A DNA stretch of 64,000 nucleotides from Daphnia carinata (Eukaryota > Arthropoda > Branchiopoda > Diplostraca > Daphniidae), in assembly GCF_022539665.2 (NCBI RefSeq), contig NC_081332.1, positions 5,285,803-5,349,802 on the forward strand. Reading direction: 5' to 3'. The first letter of the stretch is position 1. The number at the start of each line of letters is the position of its first letter. Shown here piece after piece: positions 37,259 through 47,558 of this stretch. Below the pieces are notes generated by a model that worked only from the letters and a program-made list of their open reading frames with translations, was not told the origin of the DNA and searched no databases. A program made the position numbers and the translations under genes.

Positions 37259-39247
37259 ATGGCTCCGATCACGGCTTCAGCCCCCAAAATGACGGGCGGA
37301 TCGATCGAATTGCGGGAACCGTCACTTCCCGTGAAACTTCTTACAGCTGGTACAGCCGCCTGCGTCGCGGATCTCATTACATTTCCACTCGACACGGCAA
37401 AAGTTCGGTTGCAGGTAAAAATAAACACATGTTGAACTAAGGCTTGACTTTTGCGCAGTAAGATTTTTCCAATGACTTTATTGGCACTGATATAGATCCC
37501 TTGAATACTTTATTGCATATCAAATATTTTGTTTTGTTTTTCTTGAGGGGTACAATGACTCCCGTTGTTTGTTCCCTATGTAAAAGCAACTGGCTCCGAA
37601 ACTTTGTAGCTTTTTTTGGTCCACTCTTCATTCGGACCCAAACATAGTTTCTATTTCTCGGGTTTTAGTTAATGATATGATCTCTTGAGATGTATTGCCC
37701 TGTCACTGGCTTAGATACTCAAGGCCTTTAAACGTTGTAGGGGTATTTTTCCTTATAAAAAAAAGGCACTTCTCGCGGATGGCCTTCCGCGCGACACCCA
37801 CCGTGGTGGCACTGGTTTAAACCGGACTGGCCTCCCCTTTCTATGAATGCTTTCTCTTGTCCTGTTTCGAAAAAAAAAAAAAAAACTAGGTTCAACACTC
37901 GATTCGTATTAGGGTATCGAACTCGCTTAGTCCGGCGGGCATAAGATTTAAGTTTTTAACTCTCTTGATATGGAAAGACAAAATACTTTCACGACCTACT
38001 TACTGTCTAATTTATCATTGACCCTAATGAGACTCTGTATGTGCCATATACTTATCTTAATACTTGTGTTATCAATTTCTTATTATTATTACATTTTTTT
38101 TTTTTTATAGATTCAAGGAGAGGCTGGTGCGGCACCCGTACGTTACTACATTACCACAGCGGCCTCAACTTTGGGTGCTGGAGGACATGGCGCTGCGGCT
38201 GTGATGGTTGAACATTCAGCGGCTTCATCTCAATACAAAGGCATGATTGGGACAGTTTCAACCATTGCTCGCCAAGAAGGGCCAAAGTAATTAGAGGGTG
38301 ACGGTTAACCTCCTAAAATGACAAGGCACTAACAAAATTGTTTACCCTTATAATTATTAAGGGCTCTATACAATGGACTGGTTGCCGGACTTCAACGTCA
38401 AATGTGTTTCGCGTCCATCCGAATTGGGCTGTACGACTCAATCAAATTGCTGTACCAACAAACCCTTAACGGTATTAGCCCTTTATTTTTATATTATCCT
38501 ATGCAAGGATGTGGCTAAAATTAATCTGCATGTTTCATAACAGGAAGACGAAACTCAGCCAACAAAAACACGAACGCTAGCATATCTGTGCGAATATGCG
38601 CAGGAATTACCACAGGAGGTTTGGCTGTGCTCTTTGCTCAACCGACCGATGTTGTTAAAGTACGAATGCAAGCAGAGGCTCGTTCGGCCACTGGAATTAA
38701 ACGTTATTCGAGCACCATGAACGCTTATTCCACTATTGCTCGCAAAGAAGGAGTTGCTGGCTTATGGAAAGGTATGATTATTTCGACAAAATTATACACC
38801 GACGTGCGTCTTGACATCAAAAACCTATCAAAACGTTTTGCAGGAACATTGCCCAATGTTAGCCGTAATGCGATCGTCAATGTAGCCGAGATTGTCTGTT
38901 ACGACCTCTTCAAAGAGTACATCCTAAATTCCGGTTTGCTGAAGGATGGCGTTCCATGTCATTTTACCGCCGCCGTTGCTGCAGGTTTCTGTACGACGGT
39001 GGTCGCATCACCGGTCGATGTCGTCAAAACACGTTTCATGAACGCCCCGGTAGGCCAATACCGAGGTGCTATCGATTGTGCCGTCCGCATGATGATGAAA
39101 GAGGGCCCTGGTGCCTTCTATAAAGGCTTTATGCCTTCATTCTCTCGTCTGGTGTCCTGGAACATTTGTATGTGGATCACATACGAACAATTCAAAAGAA
39201 TGGTCTTGGTGGCTTACAACCAACCGACAATGCTCAATAGACATTGA
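37259..39247 (+). CDS. UCP: Mitochondrial uncoupling protein, UCP2/3-like (SLC25 carrier)
   Basis: Five exons: 37259-37414, 38111-38286, 38362-38471, 38544-38771, 38844-39247; 357 aa. It has the three-fold SLC25 repeat with signature strings [22 protein letters not shown] and [11 protein letters not shown]. Each is followed by a second helix and a GLWKG or [10 protein letters not shown] motif. [12 protein letters not shown] and [10 protein letters not shown] match uncoupling proteins 1-3 rather than UCP4/5. The protein sits in the inner mitochondrial membrane and is thought to dissipate proton gradient or exchange metabolites. It is about 45 residues longer than vertebrate UCPs: exon 2 carries an Ala/Gly/His-rich loop ([16 protein letters not shown]) inserted in the first matrix loop. 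Confidence 0.94.
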
Positions 39248-39830
39248 TGTCAAAGGAATTATGCACAAATCAGATAACTTTTGTGAAAAGTTCTTTTTTT
39301 GGGTTTTCTATTACTACAGTTAAACGACGCGAAAATTTATTTGTCGTATTCATTTAATCAGGTAATCGGGTCCGCTTTTACATTTGTTTGATGGCTTGCA
39401 GTAATATTCTTTACTTATGTTATATATCGTGCGCATCGAATACACTATTGTTTTTTTAAAATACAGTCCCTTGTTTTGTCTTCAGTATTTTGAATAATCA
39501 AAGACGTTTGATGTGTCACGCTAGCGCTGTAGCGTACTGGCGCGTACACACACTAATTTTAAGTTTTAGATAACTCAAAAACTATCAAATCTACGTAAAA
39601 ACAAATTCCTTTTTAGTGTTCCTTGTTAAATTTTAAACAAGAACCATATATAGTTATCTAGATCTAATCATATTATTTTTTAATAGGAAAAAATTTAAGC
39701 CCGACAAAATAGGCCCCACGAAAAAAGCCCGACTTTCTGTTTTTTACGGTTTATTCAAAAAGTATATGCCTAACATAAAAATAAACCAGATTTTCGTGAT
39801 CAGTGATTGGAATAATTTTTGTATTTTTAA
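39248..39830. other. Intergenic between UCP and the palindrome
   Basis: AT-rich sequence with the UCP 3' UTR; no gene seen. Confidence 0.4.
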
Positions 39831-41693
39831 TCGTCCATTTTGTAGTAAAAAGTAAAAGTAAAAAAAAATATCAGCCTTTTTTTCCGTTTCACTGCTGTCG
39901 CCATCTACCGGTCGATAGCAGTAAAACAAAAAGAAAGGTCGATATTTTTTGGGGGGTGGGGGGGGGGGGGTAAAACGGATTGCCATAGATTGCATCAAAC
40001 TTACCCATTCGGCAACCCAAGTGTGCACATGTTTTTCTTCGATAATTATTTTATTTTGCTAGTATGTTTGGTAAACTGCAATCGTGCCCAATTTTTGCCT
40101 TTGCATTTTAGGTCAACTATTAGGTGATCTATACCTGATCCTGTGTTTTAAAGTGATCTGCTTTCACAGCTACATTTCTGTGTTCTTTTCCGTTGGTCTA
40201 TGGTTCTGAATTGAGGCAAGTATATCTATTATGCTATCTCACTAAGTACTATAGGGAAAAGAATAACTGAAGTTGATTGAGATCTATTCTGATTCTCCTG
40301 ATATCCATCTCAACAGGTTTTTATTTGCTTTTCAACATCCATTTCATAGTGGTACATGTGGCTTTGATTAATATTACCATAAAGACTGCCAAAAATGGGT
40401 GTGGTACGGAAACCCAGAAATGGCATGAGTTCAACATCAAACATGGATTAGGTACTTTTCGGGTTTTTTTCTATCGAAAAAGTATTTTTAATGCTATTAT
40501 TTTGCATTCACAGAATTTTAGCGGGGGATCAAGTCAAGTCTGGAAGTGTTACAGGATGGAAGAGTGAGCCTACAGTTGAAAAAACACAGAGTACATTACC
40601 ATTAAGGTATGAGGTAAAATAATAGAGTATGCACATTGTCTAATGAGAAGTACCATCTTGTGTAAATGAATCTTGTATAACAGCAATCCTTCATAGTTCT
40701 GTCACAGCTAGAAGCCTCAAATAATTCTGCTTCTCTTGCTAAAGAACAGCTTGTCCTTTACGTTCAGAGTGTTTGTGAAGCTGGGTACTTAAATGGCCCT
40801 AATGATGTTTCACTTTGCTGGCATTGCAGCGGTGAACATCATACATGGACTCTTTAGGTATGAACGGAATTTTCTTGAAAAAATTTTGAATTTATGACGA
40901 AGCATTTCTCCTCCTTTTTGCCAACCATGTCTAATCTACAAAAAAAAATTTATCCAATAGGAAAGGATTTTCAGCATACTGGGAACACAACTATCGACAA
41001 TGCAACATTCTACAGGTGCTATTTTATCATTTAAGAGCCTTATACAATGATTTTCTTCTGCAATTTGTATGGCCTTTCCCAAGCTTCTGCCAGAAGTTGA
41101 ATCTATGAGTCATGTAAGTCACATAGCAACAATTGAGATGCTTAATGGTGTTGTTTTTCTTTTCTCAATATAGGTTAATAGTAACATTGGATCTGAAAAG
41201 ATTCTTGGTTGGGGCAAGACACTGAATAAATTGTAATGATAGGATGGATGACATGACATTTCTATGCTTCATTCGGATTCCCGAGATGGTATTTTATATT
41301 TAAAAAATTGAAGTGCATATCTGGGCTCCCTTCCTTTCCGTAGCCCCGTTTCCCCTTGACTCGTGATAAGCCCGTAGGGGGTCATGCCCCTACTGTACGG
41401 TATATATAAAAATAACATATACCGAGGTTTGGAAGGCTCTGGCCGGAAAGGGGACGTGGGGGTCCGCTTAGTCCGATGATGTGTTCACGGAGGGCGACGT
41501 GGCTACTCACAAATCCGAACTAAAGGTTAATCGCTCCAGTAAAAATGTTCCAAATCTTCGGCTCTTCTTCCGGCTTCTCTTAGCCAATCACCGGGTAATC
41601 TCCCCGGTGGGTCAACAAGGCAGTGTCTCCCCCTGCCTGGGTTGACGGCAACTTTTGAAAGGGCTATTGTGCCTTTTTAAAGTTGCAAAAATA
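39831..41693 (+). repeat. Left arm of a 7.1 kb inverted duplication
   Basis: This 1.86 kb segment recurs in reverse complement at 45078-46944, with only scattered substitutions and small length changes in homopolymers. Identity starts at TCGTCCATTTTGTAG and ends at AGTTGCAAAAATA. The arm contains exon-like blocks with splice signals, for example one ending at 41236 that encodes ILGWGKTLNKL and a stop, and one near 40682-40857 encoding QLEASNNSASLAKEQLVLYV. I could not join them into one frame. Arm sequence near the spacer side (41340-41690) is GC-rich and may be structured. Confidence 0.95.
39951..39970 (+). repeat. G-run in the left arm
   Basis: Nineteen G and one T in 20 bases, next to the arm's outer edge. 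The right arm has the matching C-run at 46803-46825. Such runs can form G-quadruplexes and are prone to sequencing error. Confidence 0.85.
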
Positions 41694-43323
41694 ATTCAAG
41701 TATGTGAAGGTAGTATTGTGTATGATAGATTTGAATAGCTTTCCCAAATTGTAGCTAAAAAATTTCTTAAGTTCGCTACATATGCAGTTTTCCGTTACAA
41801 TCAAAGATGAATTTGGCTTTTTCGATCGATTTGAAAATGTCTTATCTTATCACGGAGACCAACGTAAATCACAGAAACGTTCAATTGATTCGCTCTATTT
41901 GTCTTCCGCTTTTCTGAACGTTGTCACTTTCATTGAAACCCGTAATATTTTGCATTGTCTCCCACATCTTAACATTCACTTTTTTGGCTAATTTAGCGCC
42001 TTTTAATTTTCCTTTGCCCGCAATCGTTTGATTGTGTTAACCCATTTAAGAGATTTCTATGTCGACCGTTGTTTTCAAAATTTCTTCGTGAAATTGTTAT
42101 TGACACTAACAGCAAACAGGCATACACATTAGCGTACTTATTATGTGCGCGGATGCTGTTGTGGATGCTTTTGAATCATATTATACGGCTGCCAATTGAT
42201 TATCTGGTGTTATGTGTTTTTTTTACTTAATTTTCCCATTTTGTATTCATTTTCAAATCGAAAGAGAACAATGTGGTGAGTTTGTGCGGCTCTTTATATG
42301 CAAAAACAGCAGGTAAGAAATGGTAATACTAATTTTAGAGAAAAAATGTAGAATCGCTATCCTCGTCTAAAAAGCCGCAGCCTACAAGTACTAGTCACAC
42401 TTGTTGGGGGTGGGGGGACGTGAATTTTCGCTTTAGAAACAGAATGGACGTGTTCACAGCAGTATTTTTCACGCATTAAAAAATAAGTGAATTCTTAAGA
42501 AAATTCGCGTCTTGATTCTAAATTAAAAAACAAGATGGCGCTGTTTGTGCTATTAATTTGTTCAGTTAGAACGCATGATAAGTGAAATCCGGCCGAATGT
42601 TTGTTAACTGTGTTAACATACAACAGAAGATTCGAAAATCGTTTTGCTACCGACGATGAAGTGTTTTGATTGTTGTGTTTGGAAGTCAACCAGATCAAAT
42701 AGATTTCTTCTTTAACGAGATCAGCTATGCCAGCTGTCAAACACAAAGCCTGGCAGCATATTCTGGCTTTTGCGTTCAATCATGTGATAAGATTACTCAT
42801 TTAAAGGTATAAGGCTTACATTTTGATACTAGAATCCAATTAGTATGATTCTACTTTCAAGGAATAGCTCATGAAACTTTATTTACAAAGTACAGAGGTT
42901 GTGACAGTGGCAAAAGTGTTATCATTTGAATATCTTCGTCTGATTTTGCAGCACTTTATCCATTCATCAACTATCAGTTCGGATCTGGCAAAGGTGGTTT
43001 ATACCTCTGTGTCGTGTGGCCAACAAAAATTACCACCGTTTCAGCAGTCTTCCTGCCATTCCTACCTAACCAACCAACACACATAGACATAGACCCCAAA
43101 ACCATTTTCTTGTGGTATTTTAAGTTTCTTTCTTAGTCTAATATGACTTTTCTTTATATTTAATATCCTTTTATAGGACTGCCAAGTCTTTACTTTCTTC
43201 ATCGTAATTCCTGGCCCCACTATCTTTTTAGTCTTCGAGTAACAGCTGTAGGTCAAATAGCCATCTCTGTTATAGTTTCACCAACAATGTTTTATTTCCA
43301 AAAATTAATAGTTGGTTTTACTT

Positions 43324-43566
43324 CTATCGTTTAGAGCTAGGGCATTTTCCTTTTCTATCCCATGTAAAAAGACCTTCAAGATTTCGATCTCTGTGTATTA
43401 ACTCTCTCAAGCCATCTAAAAGTAAGTTTCCATTTGCCCGTTCAAGTGTAATATTGTAATATCGTTGTTTGTTATTTAGGTAACGCCATGACAGCAAAAT
43501 GAAAAAAAGTGATGGAATGCCGAATAGTAAATAAGCAGCGGCCTGTAGGAGATCATCGTGGAACAT
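43324..43566 (-). CDS. Possible small single-pass membrane protein, unrecognised
   Basis: An 80-codon minus-strand frame runs from ATG at 43566. It opens with MFHDDLLQAAAYLLF, continues through a hydrophobic segment (IPSLFFILLSW), then a basic/polar tail with ERANGNLLLDGLRELIHRDR. Composition is protein-like rather than random AT-rich sequence, but no family is recognised and the upstream side is minisatellite. It may be one exon of a larger or decayed gene. Confidence 0.3.
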   Translation of the reverse strand: MFHDDLLQAAAYLLFGIPSLFFILLSWRYLNNKQRYYNITLERANGNLLLDGLRELIHRDRNLEGLFTWDRKGKCPSSKR

Positions 43567-43590
43567 CGTGCAAAATGTTGTTACATGGTC

Positions 43591-43843
43591 CGTCTTCGCC
43601 TCGCCCGTCGACCCGTCTTCGCCTCGCCCGTCGACCCGTCTTCGCCTCGCCCGTCGACCCGTCTTCGCCTCGCCCGTCGACCCGTCTTCGCCTCGCCCGT
43701 CGACCCGTCTTCGCCTCGCCCGTCGACCCGTCTTCGCCTCGCCCATCGCCCCGTCTTCGCCTTGCCCGTCGCTCCGTCATCGCCTCGTGGTCGCGCCGTC
43801 TTCGCCTCTCCCATCGCCCCTTCGTCACCTCGTGGTCGCCTCA
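43591..43843. repeat. 23-bp minisatellite
   Basis: Six nearly perfect head-to-tail copies of a 23-bp unit (starting CGTCTTCGCCTCGCCC) occupy 43591-43728, with decayed copies up to about 43843. The array is GC-rich in an AT-rich neighbourhood. Because 23 is not a multiple of three, every frame reads quasi-repeats (RARRRRVDGRGEDGSTGE-like on the minus strand), producing overlapping spurious ORFs. Confidence 0.95.
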
Positions 43844-44350
43844 TCGTGATATTGTTTTGTTTTGTTTCGTATTATGTAATGCTAATCTAATTAACTCGTT
43901 GGCTGCCACCCACCCACCTTGATCCCCTTTTTTTTGTAGCTTGACAGGGACGGGCCGCGCTGTTCTGCTCCATGGTCTATCTGCCATGGGGTGGAGCAGC
44001 GCCACTGCCCAAGATTGGCCGAACGGCCCTTTAGGCAATGCACCGCAGGGAATTCCCTTGAACGAGACGGCGATGTAGACCTGGGGTGTGCATTCCCGTA
44101 AAGGTCTCATCGTCGTTTCAGCCCGGCCTACCCGGCCCCCTTGGTCGCTATCCCTTCGATAGCGACAGTAGCGACTGTAGAATATGGTGGCGTGGCAGCC
44201 AACGAGTTAGTTGTATGTATCTGTGTATGTATTGTATTTTGTATATTGTATTAAAATGTATGTAAAGTGGTGGATATGTGGGTGGAAGGAGGGACAATAA
44301 AAACTTTTACACTATTTACTTTTGTATTTATTATTTAACTACACATTAAC

Positions 44351-44420
44351 TGACATGGGGATCGAACCCCAGTATTCCAGCATGACAACCACGTGCTTTA
44401 CCATTATTCCAACCATGAAC
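44351..44420 (-). pseudogene. Decayed tRNA-like sequence (Asp-like)
   Basis: The reverse complement has a perfect T arm (TGGGG TTCGATC CCCA) and an anticodon-like TTGTCAT loop (GTC), but the anticodon and acceptor stems do not pair. It is probably a tRNA relic or the head of a tRNA-derived SINE. Confidence 0.4.
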
Positions 44421-44544
44421 TTATAAGCCACTAACGAATATTTCTTGTTACCTACGGACTTACATTTACACTTAGAATAAAATTGAAATGCAATACTGCA
44501 ATATTCTTTTCCACAATAATTCTGCTTCAAATTATATACATCTG

Positions 44545-44608
44545 TTGAGGTTTGAACCCAGGGTAACTGGTCTCGCAGCTTAAGGCTCTACCACAGAGCT
44601 ATAGACCT
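44545..44608 (-). pseudogene. Decayed tRNA-like sequence
   Basis: The reverse complement has a perfect D arm (GCTC TGTGGTA GAGC) and a B-box-like GGGTTCAAACC. Anticodon and acceptor stems are mispaired, so it is not scored as functional. Confidence 0.4.
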
Positions 44609-44708
44609 TATGAAAACTGGAGAAAGATAAGCATATATTTGTGCAAGACTGCACAAACAGCCTAGACGAGAACACAGTATATGGGATAATAAGAAAGTTT
44701 ACACAAAT

Positions 44709-44774
44709 CTCGTGGCTCGATGTTAGAGCATCGGCGTTGCACACTAAAGGTCTGGAGATCGGTTCCCATACGAG
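44709..44774 (+). pseudogene. Decayed tRNA-like sequence
   Basis: CTCGT at the start pairs with ACGAG at the end, and GGCTC GATGTTA GAGC forms a D arm. The B box is altered (GATCGGTTCCC) and the anticodon stem is poor. Confidence 0.4.
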
Positions 44775-45077
44775 TAAAACAAATTACAAATACAAAATTA
44801 CTTCAGAAAATATCCAGGCATTATACTATGTTCCTTGAATTTAAGTTGAAGAATTCATAGAGTGTAATAAATAATAATTGAATACTTACAGATAAACGAT
44901 AAACCAATGCTTACCATCAAAGGTGGCAAAAACAATAAAGATGATTTGAGCAAGCTAAATAAAAAAAAAGTTGATAAATGTAATGTGTGAACACGGCGAA
45001 CACACACAATGAAAGTAACAAATTTTACAAAAAATTTTATAAAAAAAATTTTATTGACAATTCTCTGCACATTAGAA

Positions 45078-46944
45078 ATATTTTTGCAACTTTAAAAAGG
45101 CACAATAGCCCTTTCAAAAGTTGCCGTCAACCCAGGCAGGGGGAGACGCTGCCTTGTTGACCCACCGGGGAGATTACCCGGTGATTGGCTAAGAGAAGCC
45201 GGAAGAAGAGCTGAAGATTTGGAACATTTTTACAGGAGCGATTAACCTTTAGTTCGGATTTGTGGGTAGCCACATCGCCCTCCGTGAACACATCATCGGA
45301 CTAAGCGGCACCCCACGTCCCCTTTCCGGCCAGAGCCCTCCAAACCTCGGTATATGTTGTTTTTATATATACCGTACAGTAGGGGCATGACCCCCTACGG
45401 GCTTATTACGAGTCAAGGGGAAACGGGGCTTCAGAAAAGAAGGGAGCCCAGATATGCACTTCAATTTTTTTAATATCAAATACCGTCTGGGGAATCCGAA
45501 TTAAGTATAGAAATGTCATGTCATCCATCCAATCAATACAATTTATTCAGTGTCTTGCCCCAACCAAGAATTTTTTCAGATCCAATGTTACTATTAACCT
45601 ATATTGAGAAAAGAAAAACAACACCATTAAGCATCTCAATTGTTGCTATGTGACTTATATGACTCATAGATTCAACTTCTGGCAGAAGCTTGGGAAAGGC
45701 CATACAAATTGCAGAAGAAAATCATTGTATAAGGCTCTTAAATGATAAAATAGCACCTGTAGAATGTTGCATTGTCGATAGTTGTGTTCCCAGTATGCTG
45801 AAAATCCTTTCCTATTGGATAAATTTTTTTTTGTAGATTAGACATGGTTGGCAAAAAGGAGGAGAAATGCTTCGTCATAAATTCAAAATTTTTTCAAGAA
45901 AATTCCGTTCATACCTAAAGAGTCCATGTATGATGTTCACCGCTGCAATGCCAGCAAAGTGAAACATCATTAGGGCCATTTAAGTACCCAGCTTCACAAA
46001 CACTCTGAACGTAAAGGACAAGCTGTTCTTTAGCAAGAGAAGCAGAATTATTTGAGGCTTCTAGCTGTGACAGAACTATGAAGGATTGCTGTTATACAAG
46101 ATTCATTTACACAAGATGGTACTTCTCATTAGACAATGTGCATACTCTATTATTTTACCTCATACCTTAATGGTAATGTACTCTGTGTTTTTTCAACTGT
46201 AGGCTCACTCTTCCATCCTGTAACACTTCCAGACTTGACTTGATCCCCCGCTAAAATTCTGTGAATGCAAAATAATAGCATTAAAAATACTTTTTCGATA
46301 GAAAAAAACCCGAAAAGTACCTAATCCATGTTTGATGTTGAACTCATGCCATTTCTGGGTTTCCGTACCACACCCATTTTTGGCAGTCTTTATGGTAATA
46401 TTAATCAAAGCCACATGTACCACTATGAAATGGATGTTGAAAAGCAAATAAAAACCTGTTGAGATGGATATCAGGAGAATCAGAATAGATCTCAATCAAC
46501 TTCAGTTATTCTTTTCCCTATAGTACTTAGTGAAATAGCATAATAGATATACTTGCCTCAATTCAGAACCATAGACCAACGGAAAAGAACACAGAAATGT
46601 AGCTGTGAAAGCAGATCACTTTAAAACACAGGATCAGGTATAGATCAACTAAGAGTAGACCTAAAATGCAAAGGCAAAAATATTGGGCACGATTGCAGTT
46701 TACCAAGCATGTAGCAAAATAAAATAATTATCAAAGAAAAACATATGCACACTTGGGTTGCCGAATGGGTAAGTTTGATGCAATCTATGGCAATCGGTTT
46801 TACCCCCCCCCCCCCCTCCACCCCCAAAAAAATATCGACCTTTCTTTGTTTTACTGCTATCGACCGGTAGATGGCGACAGCAGTGAAACGGAAAAAAAGG
46901 CTGATAATTTTTTTTACTTTTACTTTTTACTACAAAATGGACGA
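45078..46944 (-). repeat. Right arm of the inverted duplication
   Basis: Reverse complement of 39831-41693; see the left arm. A 96-codon open frame is identical in both arms (46205-46495 here, 40277-40567 there), so at least about 290 bases are unchanged. Its outer edge overlaps an ATG at 46937 that opens a short frame (MDDINEWNNNIDGRVFARDG) ending in a possible donor. In the left arm the sequence diverges four codons into this frame. Confidence 0.95.
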
Positions 46945-47558
46945 TATAAATGAATGGAACAACAATATCGATGGCCGAGTTTTTGCTCGAGATGGCCAGT
47001 GGGTAGAAGTTCGATCTACGTAAATGACGTTGAGCAATGTGACTTAATATTCTGGATGATCACCCTCGGAAAATAACAACTTCAGTCAATGTTTGCCTTA
47101 GTGTGGAATCAGTCATATCAACCAAAACTTTTAGATTGATACCCTGTGAGGTGAAGTAAGGAAAAAAAAAAAAAATTTAGTTATAAGTGTTTTCAACTAA
47201 ACAAAATAAATAGATTTTGTTTTGTGTAGCCAATCTATCTTTCATTATTGCTGTCTTATGTTGAGTGGGAAAAGTAAAACATTTTTGGTACAGATGTTCA
47301 ATTAATTCAGGAAATGGACAATGCTGACACATTTGGTAATCAGTCGGAATCATATGGTTAGTGCAAATGAAGACAAGATTCCAAAATTTGAGACATGTCC
47401 ACAGAATCTTAATCAAAAATTATCAGTCAGTCATGACTTGACAAGTTATTAATAAATACTTACATATGAGGCACGCTATACAAATATTTATACCATATGA
47501 AGTAATAGGCTGGGTAACAGAATATGCATCCAATATTGAACGGTGAATTCAGCTGAAG
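46945..47558. other. Intergenic, right arm to ATRIP 3' end
   Basis: Contains most of the 28-codon frame begun at 46937, and the likely ATRIP 3' UTR. A 79-codon minus frame (47177-47416) could be an extra ATRIP 3' exon but has no clear motif. Confidence 0.35.

Follow-up and report, generated by a model that had tools for sequence, protein, structure and literature searches.

Drosophila Foldback and Tetris elements, like the Mutator-foldback elements, are palindromic, with long arms and a variable loop. The Galileo elements of Drosophila, foldback-like members of the P superfamily, have very long and variable terminal inverted repeats with arms of up to about 1.26 kb, many non-autonomous copies made of two arms, and chimeric copies, ascribed to recombination and conversion, whose arms belong to different subfamilies and whose flanks do not match (available sections of PMC3573991). 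Animal Pack-TIR elements hold host sequence other than transposable-element (TE) sequence between terminal inverted repeats, copied at the DNA level; in the accessible part of a survey of 100 animal genomes four multicopy cases are marked, such multicopy gene-capturing elements being rare there, and Daphnia and crustaceans are absent from the main text (PMC8277862). Here we describe a large palindrome in a 64,000-nucleotide stretch of the Daphnia carinata genome (the window, C2:5285803-5349802, in a genome of 108 Mb in 106 contigs). We read it, with a probability of about 0.8, as a non-autonomous, chimeric and probably immobile copy of a multicopy, gene-capturing DNA transposon family of foldback type with terminal inverted repeats of about 1.9 kb. 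The palindrome is a genuine mobile-element derivative, ordinary in kind, and its interest lies in the family, in multi-gene capture, high copy number and mappable conversion between arms.

Comparison of the window with itself (BLASTN) gave a single inverted pair at E <= 1e-8, in which 39826-41719 matches 46950-45057 at 97.27% identity over 1901 columns, with 38 mismatches and 7 gap openings, around a spacer of 3.3 kb. A first-pass annotation, made from the letters alone, had placed the palindrome at 39831-46944, which was right to within about 6 bases, and had correctly described an abrupt divergence of the flanks: similarity is lost sharply outside both arms, and the two flanks are unrelated. 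The near-uniform match that it reported stands as far as the pairing runs over the whole length, but identity is uneven, with 100% over an 875-bp tract, letter for letter, and 92-99% in the remaining 100-bp bins. The 291-bp open frame that it found in both arms lies inside this tract, at 40277-40567 (+) and, encoding the same protein, at 46205-46495 (-). The features of the locus are the following.

39826-41719, + strand: left arm of the palindrome, from the BLASTN self-match; a dispersed repeat in its own genome
45057-46950, - strand: right arm, inverted, from the same self-match; likewise a dispersed repeat in its own genome
41720-45056, + strand: spacer, dispersed, with at least three near-full-length genome copies including that of the window, the rest partial; no Pfam match in six frames
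40239-41113, + strand: 875-bp identical tract, a probable gene-conversion tract; 0 of 20,000 shuffles reach it
45659-46533, - strand: mirror of the 875-bp tract, with identical letters
39830-39867, + strand: outer end of the left arm, 38 bp identical to the outer end of the right arm; the first ~30 bp replace the family terminus
46908-46945, - strand: outer end of the right arm; mirrors 39830-39867 and abuts single-copy flank
39969-39987, + strand: internal family terminus GGTAAAACGGATTGCCATA, reversed, inside the left arm about 160 bp from the outer end
46786-46804, - strand: internal family terminus of the right arm, with one mismatch
43590-43832, + strand: 23-bp GC-rich minisatellite of 10.6 units, in the spacer
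43833-45056, - strand: subterminal spacer segment next to the right arm, common to many relatives at roughly 80-90%
39488-39830, + strand: left flank, outside the element; it belongs to another dispersed repeat, which breaks off after TATTTTTAA(T), a point at which all 7 examined copies read on differently

To place the palindrome in its genome, the left arm and the spacer were used as queries, and the best 40 of 1180 and the best 40 of 687 candidate places were considered, respectively. The left arm matched at least 60 pieces, distributed over C1 to C10, with 94-97% identity in the long ones; many matches extended exactly over arm positions 567-1871, and others from 29 or 35 to 1871. Near-full-length spacers other than that of the window were found at C2:3954436-3957812 (94%) and C5:3248916-3252207 (92%). 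The right flank (46935-47160) matched only itself in the genome, and the repeat that forms the left flank is often clustered in alternating orientations. Relatives end in the word TATGGCAATCCGTTTTACC or near it, and this word occurs 338 times in the genome (186 forward and 152 reverse), against 0 for the reversed-word control. Arm, spacer and termini were mapped on 20 examined loci of 10 kb. Terminal inverted repeats with the family terminus on both sides were present in L021, L025, L030, L040 and the pair L023/L024, the right end of L024 reading TATGGCAATCGCC. The elements measured about 4.6 kb (L025, L030), 5.0 kb (L040, 3.5 kb from core to core), 5.4 kb (L022) and 12.5 kb (L023 with L024, hereafter E6a), and another, E6b (L027 with L028), spans 9.9 kb across its arm matches and has lost its left terminus. 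Long inverted arms, dispersed copies and a variable loop are all found together, and by description alone the family resembles Foldback and Tetris of Drosophila and Mutator-foldback; for such elements see PMC4079207 and PMC3169594.

The family is not only dispersed but modular, with two kinds of outer arm and several interiors. In L040, L037, L022, L026 and C2:3952300 the common core continues, near arm position 567, into an outer arm of a second kind, which explains the matches limited to 567-1871. The two outer arms of L022 are of different kinds, although its cores are 0.31% apart; such mixed arms, together with the alternative arms and the varied interiors, indicate a family that recombines. 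The outermost part is absent from further copies, the arm matches beginning at 133-152 in L027, L033, L034 and L036. Repeats similar to the minisatellite of the window stand at the same place in relatives.

Gene capture occurs in this family, in the interiors of longer relatives. E6a holds fragments of three host-type genes between its inverted repeats: on one strand of its interior Pfam matched DNA_pol_B (7e-32, 5.7e-15 and 2.3e-10), DEAD (1.3e-13) and the polymerase-delta zinc finger zf-C4pol (3.4e-7), and comparison of its pieces with the sequences of solved structures returned polymerase delta (2.8e-18), vasa (1.4e-10) and a protease of USP4/15 type (1.4e-7 and 1.5e-7). The polymerase-delta piece, in which introns were looked for, retains a GT-AG intron between the residues KKR and YAGLYW, and so was copied from DNA rather than from spliced RNA. 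Among the best 40 of 270 candidates, at least 12 other places held a 1.74-kb part of the E6a interior at 94-98%, shorter pieces stood elsewhere, and at least 17 places, 16 of them on C6, held a 1.2-kb variant at 92%. Genome-wide, zf-C4pol gave 51 matches among 57 candidates. Of these, C4:2510501 alone spans the full profile without a stop, and it also scores highest, which makes it the likely parental gene of the polymerase-delta piece. We also observed 32 zf-C4pol matches with one TAA and near-equal scores, at C6:10.28-10.84 Mb, C6:5.44-5.72 Mb, C105, C55, C57 and C2:7511691; 24 of them lie within C6:10.28-10.84 Mb in both orientations, as in an array-like local amplification.

The long relatives thus combine the two main marks of Pack-TIR elements, inverted repeats and captured host sequence, which in the polymerase-delta piece was copied at the DNA level. 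They differ from the cases described in the accessible part of PMC8277862 in that one E6a interior unites three gene fragments and its 1.74-kb part is repeated elsewhere in the genome. The window copy departs from Pack-TIR in another way: no captured host sequence was recognised by Pfam in its left arm and spacer or, for one spacer frame, among PDB sequences, searches that short or unknown fragments would escape, and outside the subterminal region it shares with the E6a interior one short stretch at about 71%. Two features make the family worth attention: a single amplified element holds fragments of three host genes, and conversion between arms can be followed from one copy to the next. As a speculation, long inverted repeats around vasa and DNA polymerase delta pieces could also be a source of double-stranded RNA directed at germline and replication genes.

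The window arms probably record such conversion. None of their 38 difference events falls in the 875-bp tract, and the same test on other arm pairs gave 0 (L026) and 6 (L037) of 20000 shuffles as extreme. A single difference separates the window arms over arm positions 567-1289, where any other of 22 cores is at least 24 differences away. Further inward, over 1300-1871, each arm has a closer match elsewhere than in its partner: the two are separated by 23 sites, while the left arm stands 9 differences from L025 and the right arm 10 from L035, their respective nearest cores. An identical tract beside inward segments with different relatives argues for gene conversion between the arms over the 875 bp. 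The simplest reading of these sequences is a chimeric element, whose arms, at least inward, would derive from different sublineages and would then have been homogenised over the tract. The opposite order, in which part of one arm was replaced later from another copy, may also apply, and would likewise amount to conversion or recombination between copies. In all 6 of the 6 elements compared, the core closest to an arm, out of 24, was that of its partner; partners were 0.23-1.84% apart, and the medians were 3.4-4.2%. The comparison was confined to elements in which both arm-core matches exceed 1200 bp, shorter matches being dropped.

Palindromes are a known class of assembly artefact, and the first-pass annotation had allowed for one here. 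A fold-back chimeric read would suit L038, whose arms are identical over 1174 columns. The window arms, by contrast, differ patchily and have unrelated flanks, their inner segments have different closest relatives, and relatives lie on other contigs; an artefact is thus highly improbable at this locus.

The outer ends of the window copy set it apart from its relatives. A sequence matching TATGGCAATC with at most one mismatch is present in 18 of 19 non-window arm contexts, and the family terminus, here as TATGGCAATCC, contrasts with both outer ends of the window copy, which read CGTCCATTTTGTAGTAAAAAGTAAAAG in its place. A 24-bp core of this outer sequence of about 30 bp was found only at the two window arms when the whole genome was searched with up to 2 mismatches. 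Since the window ends occur nowhere else, arrival by those ends is unlikely, and we infer that the true termini were lost. A microhomology at the left junction, where ATCGT would be common to the flank repeat and the arm, was considered and dropped, as the examined copies share at most AT.

Alternatively, the window copy might be a complete element, mobile by itself, from a distinct transposon subfamily with CGTCCATTTTGTAGTAAAAAG as its true terminus. Its ends (CGTCCATTTTGTAG in the window copy) are exactly common to both arms over 38 bp, as terminal inverted repeats should be. This proposal sits poorly with the confinement of the 24-bp core to two places and with the presence of the ordinary terminus in nearly all other arm contexts. 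Moreover, a truncated ordinary copy would explain why a reversed TATGG terminus lies inside the arm at 39969, and L027, L033, L034 and L036 are also without the outermost part, so that we regard a separate subfamily as unlikely. On the reading that we prefer, a chimeric and truncated copy, a transposase supplied in trans would recognise the TATGGCAATCCG terminus and spread the copies of the family. The window element would have lost its true termini, one arm would have been copied to the other side during repair, taking along about 30 bp of the unique DNA next to it, and gene conversion between the arms would have made the 875-bp tract identical.

A second element, C2:3998263-4003601 (L051, L052), has ordinary termini with mirrored flanks: the 36 bp examined are identical, and the coordinates of matches to the flank repeat mirror each other exactly as far as about 290 bp past the termini. 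Just inside the terminus an A-run differs in length between the sides (L051 versus L052). It is conceivable, though we give it little weight, that arms grow and spread without transposase, the repair of a break in one arm being templated by the other and overrunning into the flank, which would homogenise the arms and drag in flanking DNA. With similarly low probability, the ~30-bp outer sequence of the window and the ~290-bp mirrored flanks of this element would then be early stages, and the polymerase-delta, vasa and protease interiors late stages, of the same copying; if true, the mechanism of capture could be watched within a single genome. The symmetry could alternatively stem from a recent inverted duplication of the locus or from an assembly error.

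Both cases of symmetry also bear on the inverted segmental duplication, homogenised by gene conversion, that the first-pass annotation had raised; on this idea host DNA would have been duplicated with no transposition. The window palindrome extends past the family terminus, the flanks of C2:3998263-4003601 are mirrored for about 290 bp beyond both termini, and conversion between arms is supported, so that this part of the idea survives for a part of the arms. A single locus, however, is not what was found: arms (on C1 to C10) and spacer are dispersed with common termini, and the single-copy right flank is not duplicated. We consider such a duplication a very unlikely origin.

Several results weigh against the reading of a converted, chimeric transposon copy. 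The tract test was strong in only 3 of 8 arm pairs (window, L026 and L037); it was marginal in E6a (684 of 20000 shuffles) and L040 (955 of 20000) and silent in E6b (8795 of 20000), L022 (17250 of 20000) and L038, which shows no difference. The partner arm as nearest neighbour could be explained by common descent alone. Over 165-412, in the outer segment, L022 is nearest to the left arm (5 differences) and E6a and E6b are nearest to the right (6), with 7 between the arms; over 165-566 the right arm is nearest to the left, so that the outer-segment evidence for different ancestry is weak. The outer 30 bp might be a terminus private to this copy, and the reversed-pattern control for the 24-bp core gave 0 and 1, that is, one chance match. 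No transposase was found in the copies scanned with Pfam (left arm and spacer of the window, stretches of L023 and L024), as the first-pass annotation had already said for transposase, integrase and reverse transcriptase in the window. Genome-wide, a search for three transposase families, P-element, MULE and DDE_3, gave 8, 19 and 17 matches (44), of which 0 lay in the 20 examined loci. Finally, no consistent target-site duplication was seen by eye in 13 terminus pairs, some of them paired by proximity only; one exact 6-bp repeat (L025, ATCGAT) and one 5-of-6 match (L040) were present. The target-site duplications predicted for a foldback-type mobile element were thus not established, although its many dispersed copies were. 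A TA duplication, considered since nearly every terminus starts with TA, was rejected because a target repeat has no TA at the insertion point (L045 compared with L044 and L046-L050).

These results bear likewise on an assignment to Galileo-type elements of the P superfamily. The long, variable arms, the many non-autonomous two-arm elements and the chimeric copies, with arms of different ancestry and without matching flanks or target-site duplications, are as described in the available sections of PMC3573991, and the genome contains 8 P-type transposase matches. However, 0 of these 8 lie inside examined elements, no 7- or 8-bp target-site duplication occurs in the 13 terminus pairs (many of which belong to chimeric copies), and tandem repeats stand in the spacer and not in the arms. 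The same sections describe Galileo with a 7-bp target-site duplication, a P-type transposase and tandem repeats within the arms, none of which was seen in the copies examined here, and the Daphnia family further departs from it in its captured host gene fragments and 1.9-kb arms. In build and behaviour the family works as Galileo and other foldback elements do. No test supported placing it in the P superfamily, and we hold a Galileo-type origin to be doubtful. A survey of DNA transposons in Daphnia pulex lists ten superfamilies, including P and Mutator; in its accessible text no entry could be matched by description to the present family, sequences not being compared (PMC2884549). Among the top-ranked titles in the literature on Daphnia inverted repeats and gene capture, Pack-TYPE elements, foldback conversion, Galileo, gene fragments carried by DNA transposons and vasa in Daphnia, none described this family.

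As for coding content, the first-pass annotation had taken exon-like blocks in the arms for a captured or duplicated host gene, a reading that we dropped. Over 13 stop-free stretches of the majority arm core, compared across 24 cores, there was no consistent codon-position signal. Counts were mostly near even (for example 13/14/16 and 14/13/15), with one plus-strand stretch leaning to position 1 (21/11/12) and two minus-strand stretches leaning to position 3 (5/9/14 and 13/17/22). Pfam found nothing in the left arm on both strands or in the spacer in six frames with X at stops, including no transposase, integrase or reverse transcriptase domain, the right arm not being scanned separately, and one spacer frame had no match among PDB sequences. 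Rfam at gathering scores returned a single feature in the window, a tRNA at 250-322. About 580 bp upstream of the palindrome lies the end of a mitochondrial carrier gene (38525-39247, Pfam 5.3e-42). At the right border, 46936-47020 reads CAAAATGGACGATATAAATG, an ATG in a start-like context followed by a short open frame and then GTAAAT, possibly a first exon that touches the palindrome.

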